A stretch of DNA of 33,736 bases from a virus, in the IMG/VR virus record IMGVR_UViG_3300046804_004810, positions 1 to 33,736 of that record. The stretch is one strand, 5' to 3'. Within the stretch, counting starts at the first letter, position 1. Each line of letters starts with the position of its first letter. Positions 12,615 through 28,600 of this stretch are shown here, piece after piece. The notes below the pieces were generated by a model, which saw only the letters and a program-made list of their open reading frames with translations, did not search any database and was not told where the DNA came from. The position numbers and the translations under genes are program-made.

Positions 12615-12739
12615 TGCGGTTAATCTTATTCTGCGTGGTTTTCCCCATAAATGTTGTTATTTTTACAGTCTGCACTTTCGTTGAGTGGGCAGTTGAGTTG
12701 TTCAATCTACCTAGCGAATTGTGGGACGACCTAAAATGA
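12614..12739 (+). CDS. 41-residue single-span membrane peptide
   Basis: Encodes MRLILFCVVFPINVVIFTVC followed by an amphipathic tail ending in LWDDLK. Residues about 2-22 form a hydrophobic transmembrane segment and the C-terminus is acidic. Its start overlaps the helicase stop (TGATG) and its stop overlaps the next start (ATGA), which strongly supports a real translated gene. An AAGG lies about 10 bases upstream. No function can be assigned; small membrane peptides in early operons may act on host membranes or superinfection. Confidence 0.65.
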   Translation: MRLILFCVVFPINVVIFTVCTFVEWAVELFNLPSELWDDLK

Positions 12740-13236
12740 CAGCAAAAAAGCCGACCAAAAAATTACATATTGAAATCTACGGAAAATGTGATAATCGGCT
12801 TAAAAAGATAGTTCGCGATGCGGCTGAATTCTACCTTTCGATATTGATGCCCCGCCACAAATACAACGCTCTCACTATTCATATACACTTCAAAAATAGA
12901 CGTGGAATGAAAGGAGATGAAGGTACTTGTATGGTGATGGAGTCAAATAGTCGAAACACACCAATCGAGTTTGAGCTCGAGCTCAACCGCGAAAACAATA
13001 CCAAAACTACCCTTTTCAATCTAGCACACGAGCTCGTGCACGTGAAGCAATTTGCTTTACGTGAACTAAATGAAGAGCAAACAACGTGGCACGGTAAACA
13101 CTACGATGATGATAAGATTGATTACTGGGATCTGCCTTGGGAAATAGATGCGTACGGCCGTGAACGCGGGTTATACACTAGATTCGTGCAAAAGTATAAG
13201 CTAGATAGTATTGATGAGGAGTTTCTTTTTGTATAA
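12736..13236 (+). CDS. SprT-like zinc metallopeptidase
   Basis: A 166-residue protein with the zincin motif H98-E-L-V-H102 in the context FNLAHELVHVKQFA, and a downstream PWEIDAYGRE (E136) that could provide the third ligand. SprT-like proteins cleave or bind DNA-associated proteins; phage members are uncharacterised. No C-terminal zinc ribbon is present. I chose ATG 12736, in four-base overlap with the membrane peptide, over GTG 12721. Next to the helicase gene, a role in DNA-protein crosslink removal or replication is possible but inferred. Confidence 0.82.
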   Translation: MTAKKPTKKLHIEIYGKCDNRLKKIVRDAAEFYLSILMPRHKYNALTIHIHFKNRRGMKGDEGTCMVMESNSRNTPIEFELELNRENNTKTTLFNLAHELVHVKQFALRELNEEQTTWHGKHYDDDKIDYWDLPWEIDAYGRERGLYTRFVQKYKLDSIDEEFLFV

Positions 13237-13238
13237 CG

Positions 13239-13448
13239 ATGACCAAAAAACTTGTAACAATAACGCCCGTTCAATTCGGTAACTGGATTGTCCAAGCTAG
13301 TGTGCTGGACAATGATAGCATATGCATCATCGTATACCACAAAAACAATCTACGGTGTTTTGTTCAATTTTTCGAGAACGAAGATAAAGCTAATGTGTTT
13401 GTAAAGTCGATCATTAATTATAACCACAAAGTTTTTACTGATAAATAA
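13239..13448 (+). CDS. Small hypothetical protein, end of early operon
   Basis: A 69-residue mixed alpha/beta protein starting MTKKLVTITPVQFGNWIVQA. It follows the SprT-like gene by 2 bases and shares its direction. It has no recognisable family. Its last codons form part of a late-type promoter motif (13440-13450), so it probably marks the end of the replication operon. Confidence 0.65.
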   Translation: MTKKLVTITPVQFGNWIVQASVLDNDSICIIVYHKNNLRCFVQFFENEDKANVFVKSIINYNHKVFTDK

Positions 13449-13481: not shown

Positions 13482-14453
13482 ATGAAAACATTCAAAACAT
13501 TTATTCAACTAGACGAAGGTGTGATTCCTTCGGGTGCTGGAACAAAGGGTTGGTCCCATAGTGGTGCCAAATATTTTGATCAGCTTGCGCCAGAAGATAA
13601 GCGCTATACGTTAGCTAATGATGCACATGGTGCCTCAGCAGGTGAAAAGGTCGAAGTTGTTAGTAAGCCTTATGAAGTCGGCGGCAAAATGCATGTCGAT
13701 ATCAAGCACCCATCGACAGGGAAAAAGGTACCGCTTCGCGTCGATAACCTCCACAAGCCAGGTCTAGAAAACAAATCAAATTCCCGCGACAAAGAAGATC
13801 TTGCGTTCAGTCAATTAACGAGCGGCATCGAGGCAGCAAAGAAACAATCTGGTAAGCCATATATGAATATGAAGATTGGTGGCCAAGTTCATAAAATTGT
13901 TGGCGCCCATCAAATTCCAGGTAACCCGAAAGCGGACTTTGCCTTAGTAAACGATAAAGGCGAACACGTCTACCACATCAGCCATAAAGATGGATCGTTG
14001 CCAAAGCATCATCAAGGATATGCAACCAGCCACAAAGATGTCGAGGACACCGACACGTTTAAGAACTTTATAGGTCTTACTCATGCTGCAGTAGGCGACA
14101 ACCCTGACGCGCTTGAGGGACGTACCGTTGCAGCAAAACTCAACAATAAGAATCCCGAACATCAAGAGATTATCAAGCGGTCAGTGTGGGGTAAAGATCA
14201 TGCGTCTGGCAAAACAGGAATTAATAACGTCGACGTTGTACATCAAGGCGTAATGCGAGTAACGCGCGGCGCTGGTGGCAATTATGAAATTCACTCCGAT
14301 AACGAAATGCATCGCGGAGATGAATTTAAACACCAATATCAAATGCATGTGCGTAAAGCAAGCGACAGAACATTGCCTGGTACAAAGATTAAGGGACGGT
14401 TCTTTGTACACGAAGTGGGCGGTAGAACAAACACAGACGAATTGAAACTATGA
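13482..14453 (+). CDS. Late protein with capsid-targeting-like N-terminus; possible nuclease fold
   Basis: A 323-residue protein beginning MKTFKTFIQLDEG. This resembles the T4 internal-head-protein targeting peptide (MKTYQEFIAEA), including a possible gp21 cleavage site L-D-E before G13. The remainder is basic and His-rich. The segment IPGNPKADFALVNDKGEHVY, followed by HISHKDG, has the D-x(n)-x-K layout (D152, K169) of PD-(D/E)xK nucleases, but a serine stands where D/E is expected, so this is only a suggestion. It overlaps the next gene by four bases (ATGA). Relatives are, I believe, present in aquatic T4-like phages as hypothetical proteins. Confidence 0.75.
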   Translation: MKTFKTFIQLDEGVIPSGAGTKGWSHSGAKYFDQLAPEDKRYTLANDAHGASAGEKVEVVSKPYEVGGKMHVDIKHPSTGKKVPLRVDNLHKPGLENKSNSRDKEDLAFSQLTSGIEAAKKQSGKPYMNMKIGGQVHKIVGAHQIPGNPKADFALVNDKGEHVYHISHKDGSLPKHHQGYATSHKDVEDTDTFKNFIGLTHAAVGDNPDALEGRTVAAKLNNKNPEHQEIIKRSVWGKDHASGKTGINNVDVVHQGVMRVTRGAGGNYEIHSDNEMHRGDEFKHQYQMHVRKASDRTLPGTKIKGRFFVHEVGGRTNTDELKL

Positions 14454-15628
14454 TTACACTCACACAACTTATCGTCGAATCGACGGCAAGCGAAGAAAAG
14501 TTAACTCACTTAGAGCACGCCGAAGATCATCCGATTAATGCTGGCGCGCAAGGATACGAACATGCAAAGCGTACACTAACCTCTGTACACAATGCATTGC
14601 TCGGCGGAAAGTCAGATGCTACGCTATCAACAAAGTTTGACGGATCTCCTTCAATTGTGTTTGGTCATAATCCTGAAAACGGAAAGTTTTTTGTTGCTTC
14701 CAAATCAGCATTCAACAAAAAGCCAAAAATTAATTACACAGAGGAAGATGTTGATCAGAATCATGGTCACGCGCCTGGGTTGGCAGAAAAATTAAAAATA
14801 GCTTTAAAGCATTTACCAAAGGTGTCGCCAAAAGAAGGTGTATTCCAAGGAGATGTCATGCATTCCGGTGGAACACAAGGCGATGTGCAGATGCATGACG
14901 GTAAGGCTAGTTTTACACCGAATACAATCACTTACACAACTACAAAACCTGGTGAAGGTGAGCAAGCAGCAAAATCTAAAATAGGTGTTGCTGTACATAC
15001 TGCGTATCACGGTCCTTCTTTTGCTGGGTTGAAAGCAATGTACAATTCAGGAAACGATCTGCTAAACGAACATCCTGACGTACATTTACTTGATACATCT
15101 TATCATCCAGACAAGGCAACGTATAGTGATGCGGACCGTCAGCAGTTCGAGCAACAAATGGAAGGTGCAGCAGAGCACCACAAGCAATTGAAGGGTGCAG
15201 GATACAAAGCACTTGCTTCTCATACGGACAATTTGAAAACTTACATTAACCGTACTGTCCGCGAAAATACATTTCCGAACGTGGAAGGATACAAACAACA
15301 CGTTCAAGAATTGCATGCTAAAGAAGCTGATAAATTGAAAACTGATGCTTCAAAAAACAAAAAGATTCAAGCAGGCAATGATATATCTGCGGACGTCGAC
15401 AAGAACGCTAAGCACTTCGAAGCAGCTTTCAACCTCCACAGACATCTACAAAACGCAAAAGATGCACTAGGACGAGCACTGTCGACGCACTCGGAATACG
15501 ACCATACTATCGGTAGCCAAAAGGTTAAACCAGAGGGATATGTGGCTGTAATTAATAATCGTCCAACAAAAATTGTCGATAGAGCGGAATTTAGTCGATT
15601 GAATTTCGAGAATTCGCGGAATCGGTAA
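14450..15628 (+). CDS. Ligase/nucleotidyltransferase-like late protein (DUF6267-like)
   Basis: A 392-residue protein starting MITLTQLIVES, another capsid-targeting-like peptide with a potential I-V-E cleavage site. S60-T-K62-F-D64-G65-S-P-S-I matches motif I (KxDG) of the covalent nucleotidyltransferases (RNA/DNA ligases, capping enzymes), where lysine is adenylylated. V131-F-Q-G-D-V-M resembles motif III, and KSKIGVAVHTAY may be motif V. The C-terminal about 180 residues are helical (HKQLKGAGYKALASHTDNLK and on). I recall this family as DUF6267 in phages; activity is unproven. It is coupled to the preceding gene and followed by a late promoter. Confidence 0.75.
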   Translation: MITLTQLIVESTASEEKLTHLEHAEDHPINAGAQGYEHAKRTLTSVHNALLGGKSDATLSTKFDGSPSIVFGHNPENGKFFVASKSAFNKKPKINYTEEDVDQNHGHAPGLAEKLKIALKHLPKVSPKEGVFQGDVMHSGGTQGDVQMHDGKASFTPNTITYTTTKPGEGEQAAKSKIGVAVHTAYHGPSFAGLKAMYNSGNDLLNEHPDVHLLDTSYHPDKATYSDADRQQFEQQMEGAAEHHKQLKGAGYKALASHTDNLKTYINRTVRENTFPNVEGYKQHVQELHAKEADKLKTDASKNKKIQAGNDISADVDKNAKHFEAAFNLHRHLQNAKDALGRALSTHSEYDHTIGSQKVKPEGYVAVINNRPTKIVDRAEFSRLNFENSRNR

Positions 15629-15629
15629 G

Positions 15630-15640
15630 TATAAATACTT
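15630..15640 (+). promoter_or_regulatory. T4-like late promoter
   Basis: TATAAATACTT, identical to the site at 1701-1711, lies 36 bases before the ATG at 15677 and one base after the previous stop. With flanking bases it forms the palindrome AAGTATAAATACTT. An inverted repeat, TTGTTAC (15639-15645) and GTAACAA (15667-15673), lies in the leader. Confidence 0.7.
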
Positions 15641-15676: not shown

Positions 15677-17137
15677 ATGACAAATAAACAAGATCCATTT
15701 CAAGATGAAATGACGCTTGGTGACATTGCCTCACTTCGCGGTCAAAAAGAAAAGCAGCCACCAGCCGCTGCTCCTGCTGAGCAAAAACCAGCTCGCAAGC
15801 GCCTATTGCCAATGGCAGACATGCCTGCAGCTCCAGCACCAGATAAAATCATCATAAATCCAAATGTTGGCGAAAAAATCAACGAAAACGCAGAAGAAGG
15901 CGGTCATGCTGTCTTTGCTTTTGGGCGTTTCAATCCTCCTACTGTGGGCCACGAGAAGCTGATACATGCCGTCGAAAAGGTAGCTGACGAGCACGGAGTG
16001 CCAGCAAATATTGTTGCCAGCCACACTCAAAACAAAGATAAAGACCCGCTTCCGCAGGCAAAAAAGGTAGGATATCTGAATAAAATAACTGCTCCAGGTA
16101 CAAATGTAACTGGTTCTTCAAAAGAAGAACCTACTTTTCTTCAGTATGCAGCAAAACTCCATAAACAAGGCGTTCAACATCTACACATGGTAGCGGGTTC
16201 AGATCGCGTCAAAGAATACGAAGAAAAATTGAAAAAATACAACGGGACGCATGAAGGTGCCCTTTTCAATTTTAAAAGCATTACAGTACATTCTGCTGGG
16301 CAAAGAGATCCAGACGCAGAAGGTGTTGAAGGAATGTCGGGTACAAAAATGCGTGCCCACGCGCGCGCCGGTGAAATGGAAGAATTCAAATCTGGATTAC
16401 CGGATGCATTGAAATCGCGTGCCGATGAAATAGCTAAGCATATCCGTAAAGTTGCTGAGTCTACGGAAAATGATATAGAGGATACAATGAAACTAAACGA
16501 ACATACTTTCACCGATAAAGAACGTATTGCACTTCATGAAAAAGCACTTAAAAGTGGAGTGAAATTCGCTGTGCTACGCGAAGTGTATCGTCGCGGCATA
16601 TGGGCTTACAAATACCATACCAATGTTAATCAAACCGCTGAGCAGTATGCTTTTGCTCGTGTCAATTCATTTATTAGTCTTGGTGAAGCTTATCAGATGG
16701 ATAAGGACCTCCGTGATATAGATGAAGCTGTCGATCTTCAAGCTCGTATGAAGCGTAAAGTCACGATGGCAATGTATCGTAAGAAAATCGAACGTGCTCG
16801 CGAGATTGCTTCTAAGCGTTTTGCTAAGAATAAAAACCTACGTGCCCGCTCACTTAAGATTGCTCGCAACACATTGAGAAAACGTCTTGGTGGTGCAAGA
16901 GGTGCTGGTTATTCTAAACTATCCTCAGCACAAAAGATTGCTGTCGATAAATTGCTAGACGGACGTCAAAAGCAAATTAAAGCAATTGCAAATAAAATTA
17001 TTACACGTGTCAAGCGCGATGAAGCCAACCGTATGTCTGGAACAAGAACATCGACCGCTAAAGCTGTTGTCGCAAGTTATGAACCAGCTTCACTTAATAC
17101 GCTGGTTGAAAAATATACCAAGAAAGCAGGTGAGTGA
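15677..17137 (+). CDS. Three-part fusion: adenylyltransferase-like domain plus two basic phage modules
   Basis: A 486-residue protein. After a Pro/Ala-rich leader, residues about 77-260 form a cytidylyltransferase/NMN adenylyltransferase-like fold. VFAFGRFNPPTVGH (79-92) corresponds to the H-x-G-H motif with Thr for the first His, and G219-M-S-G-T-K-M-R226 to the ISxTxxR motif. Residues about 271-350 carry a domain with LREVYRRGIWAY and QYAFARVNSFISLGEAY, resembling a module recurrent in phage head-region proteins. Residues about 355-486 are strongly basic (KIERAREIASKRFAKNKNLR) and likely bind nucleic acid. No good Shine-Dalgarno is seen. The 5' end is served by the late promoter at 15630. 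Confidence 0.8.
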   Translation: MTNKQDPFQDEMTLGDIASLRGQKEKQPPAAAPAEQKPARKRLLPMADMPAAPAPDKIIINPNVGEKINENAEEGGHAVFAFGRFNPPTVGHEKLIHAVEKVADEHGVPANIVASHTQNKDKDPLPQAKKVGYLNKITAPGTNVTGSSKEEPTFLQYAAKLHKQGVQHLHMVAGSDRVKEYEEKLKKYNGTHEGALFNFKSITVHSAGQRDPDAEGVEGMSGTKMRAHARAGEMEEFKSGLPDALKSRADEIAKHIRKVAESTENDIEDTMKLNEHTFTDKERIALHEKALKSGVKFAVLREVYRRGIWAYKYHTNVNQTAEQYAFARVNSFISLGEAYQMDKDLRDIDEAVDLQARMKRKVTMAMYRKKIERAREIASKRFAKNKNLRARSLKIARNTLRKRLGGARGAGYSKLSSAQKIAVDKLLDGRQKQIKAIANKIITRVKRDEANRMSGTRTSTAKAVVASYEPASLNTLVEKYTKKAGE

Positions 17138-17586
17138 TGGACTTAGTTGAACTAATGAACAAGGCATTGGCAGATACTTTTGTGATGTATCTGAAAGCAC
17201 ACTCATTTCACTGGAACGTTGAAGGAGCAGACTTCTATCAGTATCATGGTCTCTTCGATGCGATTTATAGTGAGGTGTATGGTGCTGTAGATCCAATGGC
17301 GGAACACATACGTGCCTTAGATGGATATGCGGCAGGTACAATGGTTCGCTTCCAAGCACTGACCTCAATCAAAGAAACCGTTACTGTGCCACCAGCTCGT
17401 GATATGTTGCATGACCTACAATCTGCTAACGATAAAGTGATGGCGACGATTAAAAATGTCCAGCAACATGCTGAGCGCCAAGGAGAAATCGGCCTTGCAA
17501 ACTTCTTGCAAGATCGCTACGATGCGCACGCTAAACACGCTTGGATGATTCGCTCAACATTAAAGACGAGATCAGCAGATGAATAA
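17137..17586 (+). CDS. Dps-like ferritin
   Basis: A 149-residue protein of the Dps/ferritin family. The ferroxidase ligand set is complete with canonical spacing: H25 (HSFHWNVEG), H37, D52 and E56 (DPMAEHIR). Dps proteins form 12-subunit shells that oxidise and store iron and protect DNA. Length is slightly below bacterial Dps (about 165), with no obvious DNA-binding lysine tail. The ATG at 17137 overlaps the preceding stop (TGATG) and was preferred to GTG 17134. It sits among late head-region genes, so it may act in or on the virion rather than in general stress. It overlaps the next gene by 8 bases. Confidence 0.9.
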   Translation: MDLVELMNKALADTFVMYLKAHSFHWNVEGADFYQYHGLFDAIYSEVYGAVDPMAEHIRALDGYAAGTMVRFQALTSIKETVTVPPARDMLHDLQSANDKVMATIKNVQQHAERQGEIGLANFLQDRYDAHAKHAWMIRSTLKTRSADE

Positions 17587-25626: not shown

Positions 25627-28600
25627 ATGGCAATTACACGAGTACCAGGCTCGATGGTTGGTGCAAACACCATCACAGGCAACAACATCTTAGACGGCAC
25701 GATCACGACGAGCGATATCGCTGCTGGGATATCTTTTGGTCCTGCAATCACTTCAATTACTTACCCTGACGATGATACAGCTGCGGATACAGCTGGTGGC
25801 CAAACAATTATAATCACCGGTCGTAATTTTCTCACAGGCGCGTACGTTGTAGTTGATGGTGCTCAAGTCGGATCGGTATCGCTTGCTAATAGCACTTCTC
25901 TTTCATTTACAGCTCCAGCAAAAGCTACTGGCAGCTATGTGTTGTTTGTTGTCAACACAGACGGCTCTGCTGCTATTCTTGTTCCTGGTATTCAATACTC
26001 TGGTACACCAACATACACAACAGCTGCTGGCTCGTTACTCAATGTATACGAGTTAAATGCAGTATCGACATCTGTATCAGCAACTGGCGATACACCGTTA
26101 ACATATAGTATTGCATCGGGCACGTTGCCAGCTGGGGTCACTTTATCATCTTCCGGAACGCTATCTGGTACTGCTCCAGCAGATACAGGATCAACAACAT
26201 ATTCTTTTGTCGTTCAAGTGAAGGACGCACAAAACCAAACGACAAATAGAACTTTCAGTATTACTGTCAACACCGATATGGTAACGTGGGTCAACCCAGC
26301 GAATAATATTACATGGACAACAGGCCAATTGCTTGCTAACACGTTTGCGTTAGACGCGGGTGCTAATAGTGCTGCCGGACGAGCTATCACATATACTGCC
26401 AATACTTTACCTGACGGTTTAACGTTGAGTGGAAACACAATCAGTGGTACACCAACAACTGTAGCTAACACTACAACGTTGATTACAGCTACAACAGCAA
26501 CGACCGGTAGAACAGCAACACGTACAATTAACTGGGTTGTTGAACTTGGATCTGATCTATATTGGAAACAAAACTCCTTTGTAATTGATAACGTACCAGC
26601 AATACCGCCATATTACAACGACGCTAGCAACACTGCTAGTGGTACACCTCTGTTGCCGGCTGGTAATAACGTTGTAAGTAAATTCAATCCATACACTCCA
26701 GGATATTACAGTGGTTACTTCGACGGTACCGGTGACTATCTAACTTTCGGTGCAAACCAAGCTAACCTAGCATTTGGTGCTGGCGACTTCACGTTTGAAT
26801 TCTGGTTCAATGCTACTTCAATGCCGGCTGGTGAAATGGATATCTTCGAAGCTCAAACGACAGGAACGTTCAGGATATTAAAACGCGCCACTAGTTCTGG
26901 TTTGAGTTATGATTGGTACGGAGGTACCTCCCAACTAATCATGGCTGATGCAAGTATCACTCTCAACACTTGGCACCATGTGGCAGTTTCAAGAACGTCT
27001 GGAACGATAAACGCTTATTACGATGGCGTTAGAGTATTGAACGTAGCGGACGCTAATACAGGCGTCACACCGACTGCCAACTACGGCGTTGGTGGTAGAG
27101 CCTCTGGCGCAAACTACTTTACTGGTTATATCAGTAACATGAGATTCGTCAAAGGTACTGGCTTGTATACTGGTACATCGATCACTGTACCTACCGCACC
27201 ATTGACAGCTATCACGAACACACAACTATTGTTATGCAACAGTCCGTGGTTTAGAGATATCAGTACAAACAACTTCACTGTAACGCGAAATGGTGATACA
27301 GCTGTAGCTCCTAATCATCCATTCCAAATTAATGATGCTTACGACAGCTATGGCAGTGTGTATTTTGATGGTACCGATGACGTTATTGCTGGGTCAACAC
27401 CGAGCCTTGTTGCTAACTTTACTATTGAGTGTTGGATATACCCAACAACAAACTCAACGCAGGTAACATTCCTTTCGTTTAACTCTGGCTCATTCACTGG
27501 TATCAATATATGGCGAAACACGTCTAACCAATTAGTTGTTGATGATGGTACGAACGCTCAGACGGCGTTCTCTGCAAACACAATACTATACAACACTTGG
27601 AACCATATCGCAGTGGTTCGTAGCAGTACGACAACGACCGGATACATTAATGGTGTGGCTGTTGGAACAAACTCGTTTACACCATCAGCAACAGCAAACG
27701 TTCAGATAGGTAACTATAACGGCACGACAAAGTACTGGTTCACAGGATACATTTCTAACATACGTGTTGTTCCTGGCGTCACTGTGTACACAGGAAACTT
27801 TACTCCAAACACAAGCACACCATTAACTGCAGTATCGAATACGAGCTTGTTAACTTTACAATATGCTGGAACGATGAACGGCGTTGCAACAGATGCAACG
27901 AGAAGAGCTCGACTAATAAGGAACGGCAACACAACTATAACGACAATGAGTCCTTATGGTAAATCGTTCTGTTACTATTTTGACGGCGACGATTACATAC
28001 AGACGCCAGCCAGTTCGTTACTCACACTCACCGGTAATGGTACTGTCATACCACTAACATCTAACCTTGCAATCGATGCGTGGATATTCCAGACGCAGCG
28101 TCATACGAACGCGACTCTGCCGGTATTGATTGGAGACATGAATAACGCTGGCACGACAAACTACTTCTCGTTCGGACCAAGCAGTACTGGATACCTACAA
28201 GTTTATTGGTATGATGGAGCAGGTAAACTTGCAACTGGCAACACATTAATACCGCTTAACACATGGACACATATAGCGTTCCAAAAAGAAGGAACTGCTA
28301 TACGTTTGTATGTGAACGGAACATTACAAACACTGACAGGAACAACAACTTGGACAGCAACGAGCGGTACTGTTGGTTACTTCAATATTGGTTCTTATGG
28401 TGGCGGCGCTGCTACAGGCTTCTACGGCCAAGTCAGTGATATACGTGTAACGAACGGTCTTGTATACTCAAACGCGTCGTTTACCGCTATCAGGACACCA
28501 CTCACGCCGATAGCAAACTCCACAGCAACGACGACGTTAATGGTCGGTAATACACCAAACCATCGGGATACGTCGCCGATGAACCATACGTTGACAATTG

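Follow-up and report, generated by a model that had tools for sequence, protein, structure and literature searches.

The internal head proteins of bacteriophage T4 reportedly carry a capsid-targeting sequence, in work attributed to Mullaney and Black in 1996, and chloroviruses are said, after Agarkova in 2006, to hold restriction endonucleases packaged in their virions. In T4, the sequence is carried by IPI, IPII, IPIII, and Alt (reviewed in PMC9026906), and mutagenesis of IPIII indicates that targeting acts mainly via residues 4 and 7 and processing via residues 8 and 10, with the protease gp21 recognizing an L/I-x-E motif and cutting after the glutamate (PMC9026906). The packaged chlorovirus enzymes are, as summarized in PMC7019647, thought to destroy host DNA within minutes. 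Here, we describe two adjacent phage genes whose products, P1 and P2, begin with peptides resembling the T4 signal. We consider it quite likely that both are late-expressed cargo enzymes that bear a T4-type capsid-targeting sequence, are cut by gp21, are packed in the head, and are ejected with the DNA. Packaging in the head is well supported by the comparisons below; presence in the virion, cleavage, and ejection we infer.

The window analyzed here is a complete IMG/VR-type virus record of 33,736 bases, a fragment of a T4-like phage that encodes DNA polymerase, UvsX, a gp41-type helicase, and baseplate-wedge-like proteins. The cassette of interest lies on the plus strand and comprises P1 (13482-14453; 323 residues), P2 (14450-15628; 392 residues), and P3 (15677-17137; 486 residues, cytidylyltransferase/NMNAT-like). 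An earlier note on this DNA had started the first two genes at 13482 and 14450 and had called them coupled, and the reading frames bear out both statements: the ORFs have these starts, and the stop of P1 and the start of P2 overlap in ATGA (ctATGAtt), so that the two are translationally coupled. P1 matches phrog_13937, to which no function is assigned, and P2 belongs to DUF6267 (E = 1.2e-94). The N-terminal part of phrog_455 matches P2 and its C-terminal part P3, and in relatives P3 is either fused to DUF6267 or adjoins it. Two relatives have longer ORFs in which DUF6267 runs beyond its usual end (L036 6001-7779 and L019 5986-7446), the former also matching the cytidylyltransferase. Directly 3' of P3 lies a gene for a Dps/ferritin-like protein (17134-17586; phrog_3636, labeled DNA binding protein), and between the genes for the helicase and P1 a SprT-like metallopeptidase-like protein is weakly recognized (12721-13236; E = 0.0017).

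The late promoter that had been proposed for P1 and P2 holds in one respect. A T4-type late-promoter-like site, GATAAATA, whose ATAAATA core occupies 13441-13447 on the plus strand, lies 35 nt upstream of P1, and a similar site, TATAAATA (15630-15637, plus strand), precedes P3. The number of ATAAATA copies in the window is itself at chance level (7 seen versus 8 expected), but their placement is not: four of the six plus-strand copies lie 20-45 nt 5' of a gene start (p = 8e-6), and one well-placed copy precedes a baseplate-wedge-like gene at 25627. This positioning makes late transcription of P1 and P2 plausible.

The N-terminus of P1 reads MKTFKTFIQLDEG and that of P2 MITLTQLIVES. The predicted capsid-targeting propeptides span residues 1-12 of P1 (MKTFKTFIQLDE; 13482-13517), with a predicted cut after E12, and residues 1-10 of P2 (MITLTQLIVE; 14450-14479), with a predicted cut after E10, both on the plus strand. 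The likeness to T4 and the L/I-x-E sites claimed for these peptides are both confirmed: T4 ipII and ipIII indeed begin MKTYQEFIAEA, the hydrophobic residues that T4 IPIII requires at positions 4 and 7 are present in both proteins (F4 and F7, followed by I8, in P1; L4 and L7 in P2), and L10-D11-E12|G in P1 and I8-V9-E10|S in P2 fit the gp21 motif. The cleavage glutamate of P1 stands at position 12 rather than 10; longer spacing also occurs in homologs (FNTFLQLNES in the L019 P2, FNTFLITEG in the L178 P1), and T4 IPI, MKTFKEFTSTTTPVSTITEA, likewise shows a shifted spacing. In the predicted structures the tag is disordered in both proteins (residues 1-13 of P2 and residues 1-26 of P1, the latter with pLDDT <50).

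Because a loose regular expression returned true and chance matches alike in four long relatives, we used instead a scoring matrix trained solely on P1- and P2-family homologs, with the window left out. P1 (10.2) and P2 (10.6) are the two top-scoring ORFs of the window. Scores of at least 10 arise at internal protein positions at a rate of 0.00047, the probability that at least two of 33 genes reach this level is 1e-4, and shuffling of each N-terminus gives p = 0.00085.

Conservation of the N-terminal pattern among homologs had been set beforehand as the test on which the idea could fall, and the pattern is kept in both families. The tag is found in 83 of 123 P2 homologs (for example MITFKNFLTEA, MLTFKTFITES, and MTTFKDFLAEE) and in 31 of 68 P1 homologs (MKSFSTFLSES, MLSFKSFLNEE, and MLTFLNFLTER); P1 as sole query found no relatives in IMG/VR, and its homologs there were reached with an alignment of P1 homologs as query. 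Among 161 nonredundant tagged proteins, in which the glutamate is fixed by the search pattern, the T4 register is present in 131, with Phe at position 4 in 150, Phe or Tyr at position 7 in 156, and Leu or Ile at position 8 in 158. The cultured phage DLP6 likewise has a tagged DUF6267 protein (MMKFTQFLAE|S; KU682439 52316-53551). Some homologs are cleanly tagless and start where the tag would end (MKNTHLEHLED versus MKTFKSYLNEEKNTHMTHIE). By locus, the two tags occur together in 19 cases, on P2 only in 8, on P1 only in none, and on neither in 5, every tagged P1 being accompanied by a tagged P2; the Fisher test (p = 0.006) is only indicative here, since the loci are related.

The tag is also modular. 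Tagged proteins within 5 kb of DUF6267 (144 loci) fall into 17 sequence families when grouped after removal of the first 18 residues, including the P1 family, a DUF6321 protein, an AAA ATPase, a HAD-phosphatase-like family (L023), and one family whose members have the nuclease-like motif PD...EVK (L043). Such a shared N-terminus on unrelated bodies is what the T-even internal proteins show. HAD-phosphatase-like proteins (FDVDDTLFHT) are also encoded near DUF6267 (L023 8501-9127, tagged, and L016 4342-4947); next to a predicted ligase fold, such a neighbor recalls, by analogy, the end-healing and sealing of broken RNA. Homologs of P3 are tagged in many relatives. The notion that P3 of the window is tagged along with P1 and P2 was rejected, as it starts MTNKQDPFQDEM and close relatives have a like untagged start (DPFQDEMTLGDI in P3, EPFGGDISLEDV and DPFDGQMSLEDV in the relatives). 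Given that this start is common to close relatives, P3 may use another signal.

The search for the gp21 gene that the earlier note had suggested succeeded in the four longest relatives, with E values between 1e-35 and 1e-39, but found no match within the window, a 33.7-kb fragment that contains neither gp21 nor gp23. Eight other records of relatives, of 10-118 kb, gave no gp21 match either; as all of these records are fragments and the controls were also silent, the null result is uninformative. At the position homologous to FLTE|A of T4, the gp23 N-termini of the long relatives carry YLTE|A, LLSE|A, LLGE|A, and SLFE|A, and the site in gp23 of cyanophage S-CREM2 is LLTE|A. Judged by these residues, the site that closes the tags is of the same kind as the gp23 maturation site.

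Applied to 550 ORFs of T4, the matrix ranks gp61.1 first and ipIII and ipII second and third, followed by gp2, with Inh and gp24 within the top twenty; IPI and Alt are not recovered. The 54-residue gp61.1 (MKTFKEFIKEDMVAGDSGGNPENISIGTTSGAVVNKGPEQ; L213 18966-19130, minus strand) thus outscores ipII and ipIII, and its residues after the tag resemble the gp23 segment that follows the cleavage site; from its sequence, gp61.1 is possibly an unrecognized small internal protein. The DNA end protector gp2, fourth in this ranking, begins MAIFQIINES (NC_000866 76061-76885, in L214).

Published virion proteomes of cyanophages provide a second independent comparison. For S-CREM2, Table 3 of PMC10665884 lists 52 of 219 genes as detected in the virion by mass spectrometry. 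With annotated starts, four S-CREM2 genes reach a score of 10 or more, as P1 and P2 do in the window, namely ORF154 (cytidylyltransferase; predicted mature N-terminus ADEKQQQ), ORF12 (Cas9-like), ORF14 (kinase), and ORF13, and all four are in that table (hypergeometric p = 0.003). The test is small, and at a cutoff of at least 7 the association is weaker (6 of 11 in the virion; p = 0.024). A rank test over the whole proteome is not significant (p = 0.22), because components of the tail and shell make up most of the virion proteins. Some of the tagged virion-protein loci lie far from the cytidylyltransferase. The authors of PMC10665884 themselves state that enzymes in CsCl preparations may be contaminants. 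In ORF12 (L218 7704-10313), the Cas9-like virion protein, the tag RFASFMAEA lies 18 residues in, which suggests that translation starts internally or that the tag is displaced.

In two further cyanophages, the NMNAT of S-SCSM1 (MKSFLQFLKEA; PMC9602691) and the cytidylyltransferase of S-SZBM1 (MRFRQFIIEA; PMC9146016) are tagged and reported as detected in the virion by mass spectrometry, so that tagged cytidylyltransferases or NMNATs are listed as virion proteins in three cyanophages. The untagged DUF6267 proteins of S-CREM2 (ORF87) and S-SZBM1 (_141) are absent from the published proteome tables. A counterexample is S-SCSM1 ORF30, which is tagged (MKTFKQFMSES) and is not reported among the virion proteins. 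The tagged virion proteins that these sources support by mass spectrometry belong to families other than P1 and DUF6267. Two S-SCSM1 virion proteins in the same slot, ORF89 and ORF90, were considered as P1 and P2 homologs and were ruled out by HMM search. In S-CRM01, the kinase (MISFDQFLSEKK; L223 5685-8150) and the cytidyltransferase (MKLFNQFFKEAE; 8954 onward) are tagged, and PMC10665884 cites a report of a kinase in virions of this phage.

The bodies behind the tags resemble enzymes of nucleic acids. The model of P1 (pLDDT 85.2) contains an SH3-like domain (residues ~39-97) followed by a restriction-endonuclease-like domain (~98-312) that matches HinP1I (Z 6.7). Among viral predicted structures (BFVD), P1 matches CviJI, a type II restriction enzyme of chloroviruses (E = 3.5e-11, TM 0.45), and also a nicking endonuclease; the PADLOC match to REase_II is weak (E = 0.0086), and a Pfam search of the P1 family gave no credible match. 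Invariant across 31 sequences are E105, D152, and S167-x-K169, with Ser167 occupying the usual acidic position of the PD-(D/E)xK motif. P1 is predicted to fold like PD-(D/E)xK restriction enzymes such as CviJI and HinP1I and may act as a nuclease. Among the window proteins scanned, no companion methyltransferase was recognized.

The model of P2 (pLDDT 90.6) gave no match with E ≤ 0.001 in Foldseek alone; in VIA-align, all 50 of the 50 matches listed are RNA, tRNA, or DNA ligases, the best listed having Z 9.5 and an rmsd of 3.6 over 183 aligned residues. The residues invariant across 34 sequences (K62-x-D64-G65, D135, E362-G363, and K374) appear consistent with motifs I, III, IV, and V of covalent nucleotidyltransferases, the motif III position carrying Asp (D135) in this family. 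Neither hhalign of DUF6267 against T4 Rnl1, Rnl2, and gp30 nor a profile search of PDB sequences revealed a ligase signal, and PADLOC returned no match for P2, P3, and two neighbor families. With no match to ligases at the sequence level, the proposed ligase activity rests on the predicted fold, which points to an RNA/DNA-ligase-like nucleotidyltransferase.

We weighed other explanations for the shared peptide. It could be a scaffold-docking and gp21-substrate element of proteins that act solely in assembling the prohead, or that remain in the head, rather than being ejected in active form. T4 offers a precedent for this, as gp21 also cuts gp22, gp67, and gp68 of the core, and IPIII has an effect on the assembly of the head (PMC9026906). 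We nevertheless regard this as unlikely in view of the invariant nucleotidyltransferase motifs of P2 and the nuclease-like set in P1; moreover, the tagged cargo proteins known from elsewhere are enzymes (kinase, SAM hydrolase, and NMNAT), and the P1 and P2 families also occur untagged where the cassette sits among replication genes.

A short amphipathic element that tethers the ligase, nuclease, and cytidylyltransferase to one partner in the infected cell would likewise suit a peptide that is disordered in both predicted models, and whose carriers mostly adjoin one another, with the P1 and P2 tags co-occurring. This appears improbable to us, however, since the tag predicts the virion proteins listed for S-CREM2, including those at loci far from the cytidylyltransferase, since the matrix recovers T4 ipII and ipIII, and since the tag ends in the same L-x-E|A as the gp23 maturation site. 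We give hardly any credence to a chance resemblance in which short hydrophobic N-termini with a glutamate are over-read through the T4 analogy: the motif is short, and in its loose form it matches 0.5-0.8% of random positions, but it is conserved across homologs, across the 17 families, and in independent genomes, and the matrix is rarely satisfied by internal positions.

We thus favor packaging of both proteins as cargo: because the same tag marks enzymes found by mass spectrometry in related virions, P1 and P2 are probably packed and delivered with the DNA. They would be expressed late as precursors whose first 10-12 residues form the capsid-targeting sequence, the hydrophobic residues 4 and 7 would dock each precursor onto the prohead scaffold core, and the shell would assemble around it. 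Cleavage by gp21 after E12 of P1 and E10 of P2 would release the mature enzymes within the head, from which they would be ejected along with the phage DNA. The roles proposed for them derive from predicted fold and invariant residues: P1 would be a PD-(D/E)xK endonuclease that, on entry, attacks DNA of the host or of competitors, as the packaged restriction enzymes are believed to do in chloroviruses, and P2 a ligase or nucleotidyltransferase sealing the ends of nucleic acids in the first minutes of infection.

More tentatively, a general capsid-loading code may operate in many T4-like phages beyond the T-evens and pack a nucleic-acid kit comprising a restriction-type nuclease, ligase, cytidylyltransferase/NMNAT, kinase, SAM hydrolase, HAD phosphatase, and Cas9-like nuclease; we regard this as possible, though doubtful. 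An injected DUF6267 RNA/DNA ligase would then repair breaks made by host defense at entry, and P1 would cut host or rival DNA. An N-terminal code that predicts head proteins would turn the unexplained virion enzymes of marine phages into a testable system. DUF6267 has no assigned function and occurs in at least 468 phage records of the collection searched; for this family, the code would supply a fold prediction, predicted active-site residues, and the place where it acts. Such a code would further suggest that, ahead of any phage gene expression, T4-like phages bring in enzymes of the nuclease and ligase types together with their DNA.

Compared with known ligases, P2 shares its predicted fold and the motifs I (KxDG), IV (EG), and V (K) with T4 Rnl1 and Rnl2 and the Naegleria RNA ligase, but it lacks sequence-level similarity to them and has a long helical insertion (~227-344); no T4 ligase is known to be packaged. 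With the packaged chlorovirus restriction enzymes, P1 has in common the predicted CviJI fold and the idea of a nuclease delivered with the genome, whereas the viruses are unrelated and the packaging route differs. The cyanophage virion enzymes (PMC10665884, PMC9602691, and PMC9146016) are closer, being nonstructural enzymes in virions that bear the same tag, with a cytidylyltransferase that is a cassette neighbor of DUF6267. The available text of these papers reports their presence and names no targeting signal, nor did a limited search of open-access papers find one named. Unlike in the window, cyanophage DUF6267, where recognized, is tagless and undetected in the virions covered by these papers.

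The capsid-targeting sequence as a kind of signal is already known from T4. P1 and P2 share with the T4 internal proteins an N-terminal propeptide of ~10 residues, hydrophobic positions 4 and 7, an L/I-x-E gp21 site, plausibly late expression, a modular tag on unrelated proteins, and variable spacing, as in IPI. They differ in being enzyme-like proteins of 323-392 residues rather than small basic inhibitors and are not homologous to any T4 internal protein. The phages with tagged cargo are Kyanoviridae-like and metagenomic. What appears to be new is the spread of the tag to enzyme cargo in these phages, the likely explanation that it offers for published virion-associated enzymes, and the folds predicted for DUF6267 and P1.
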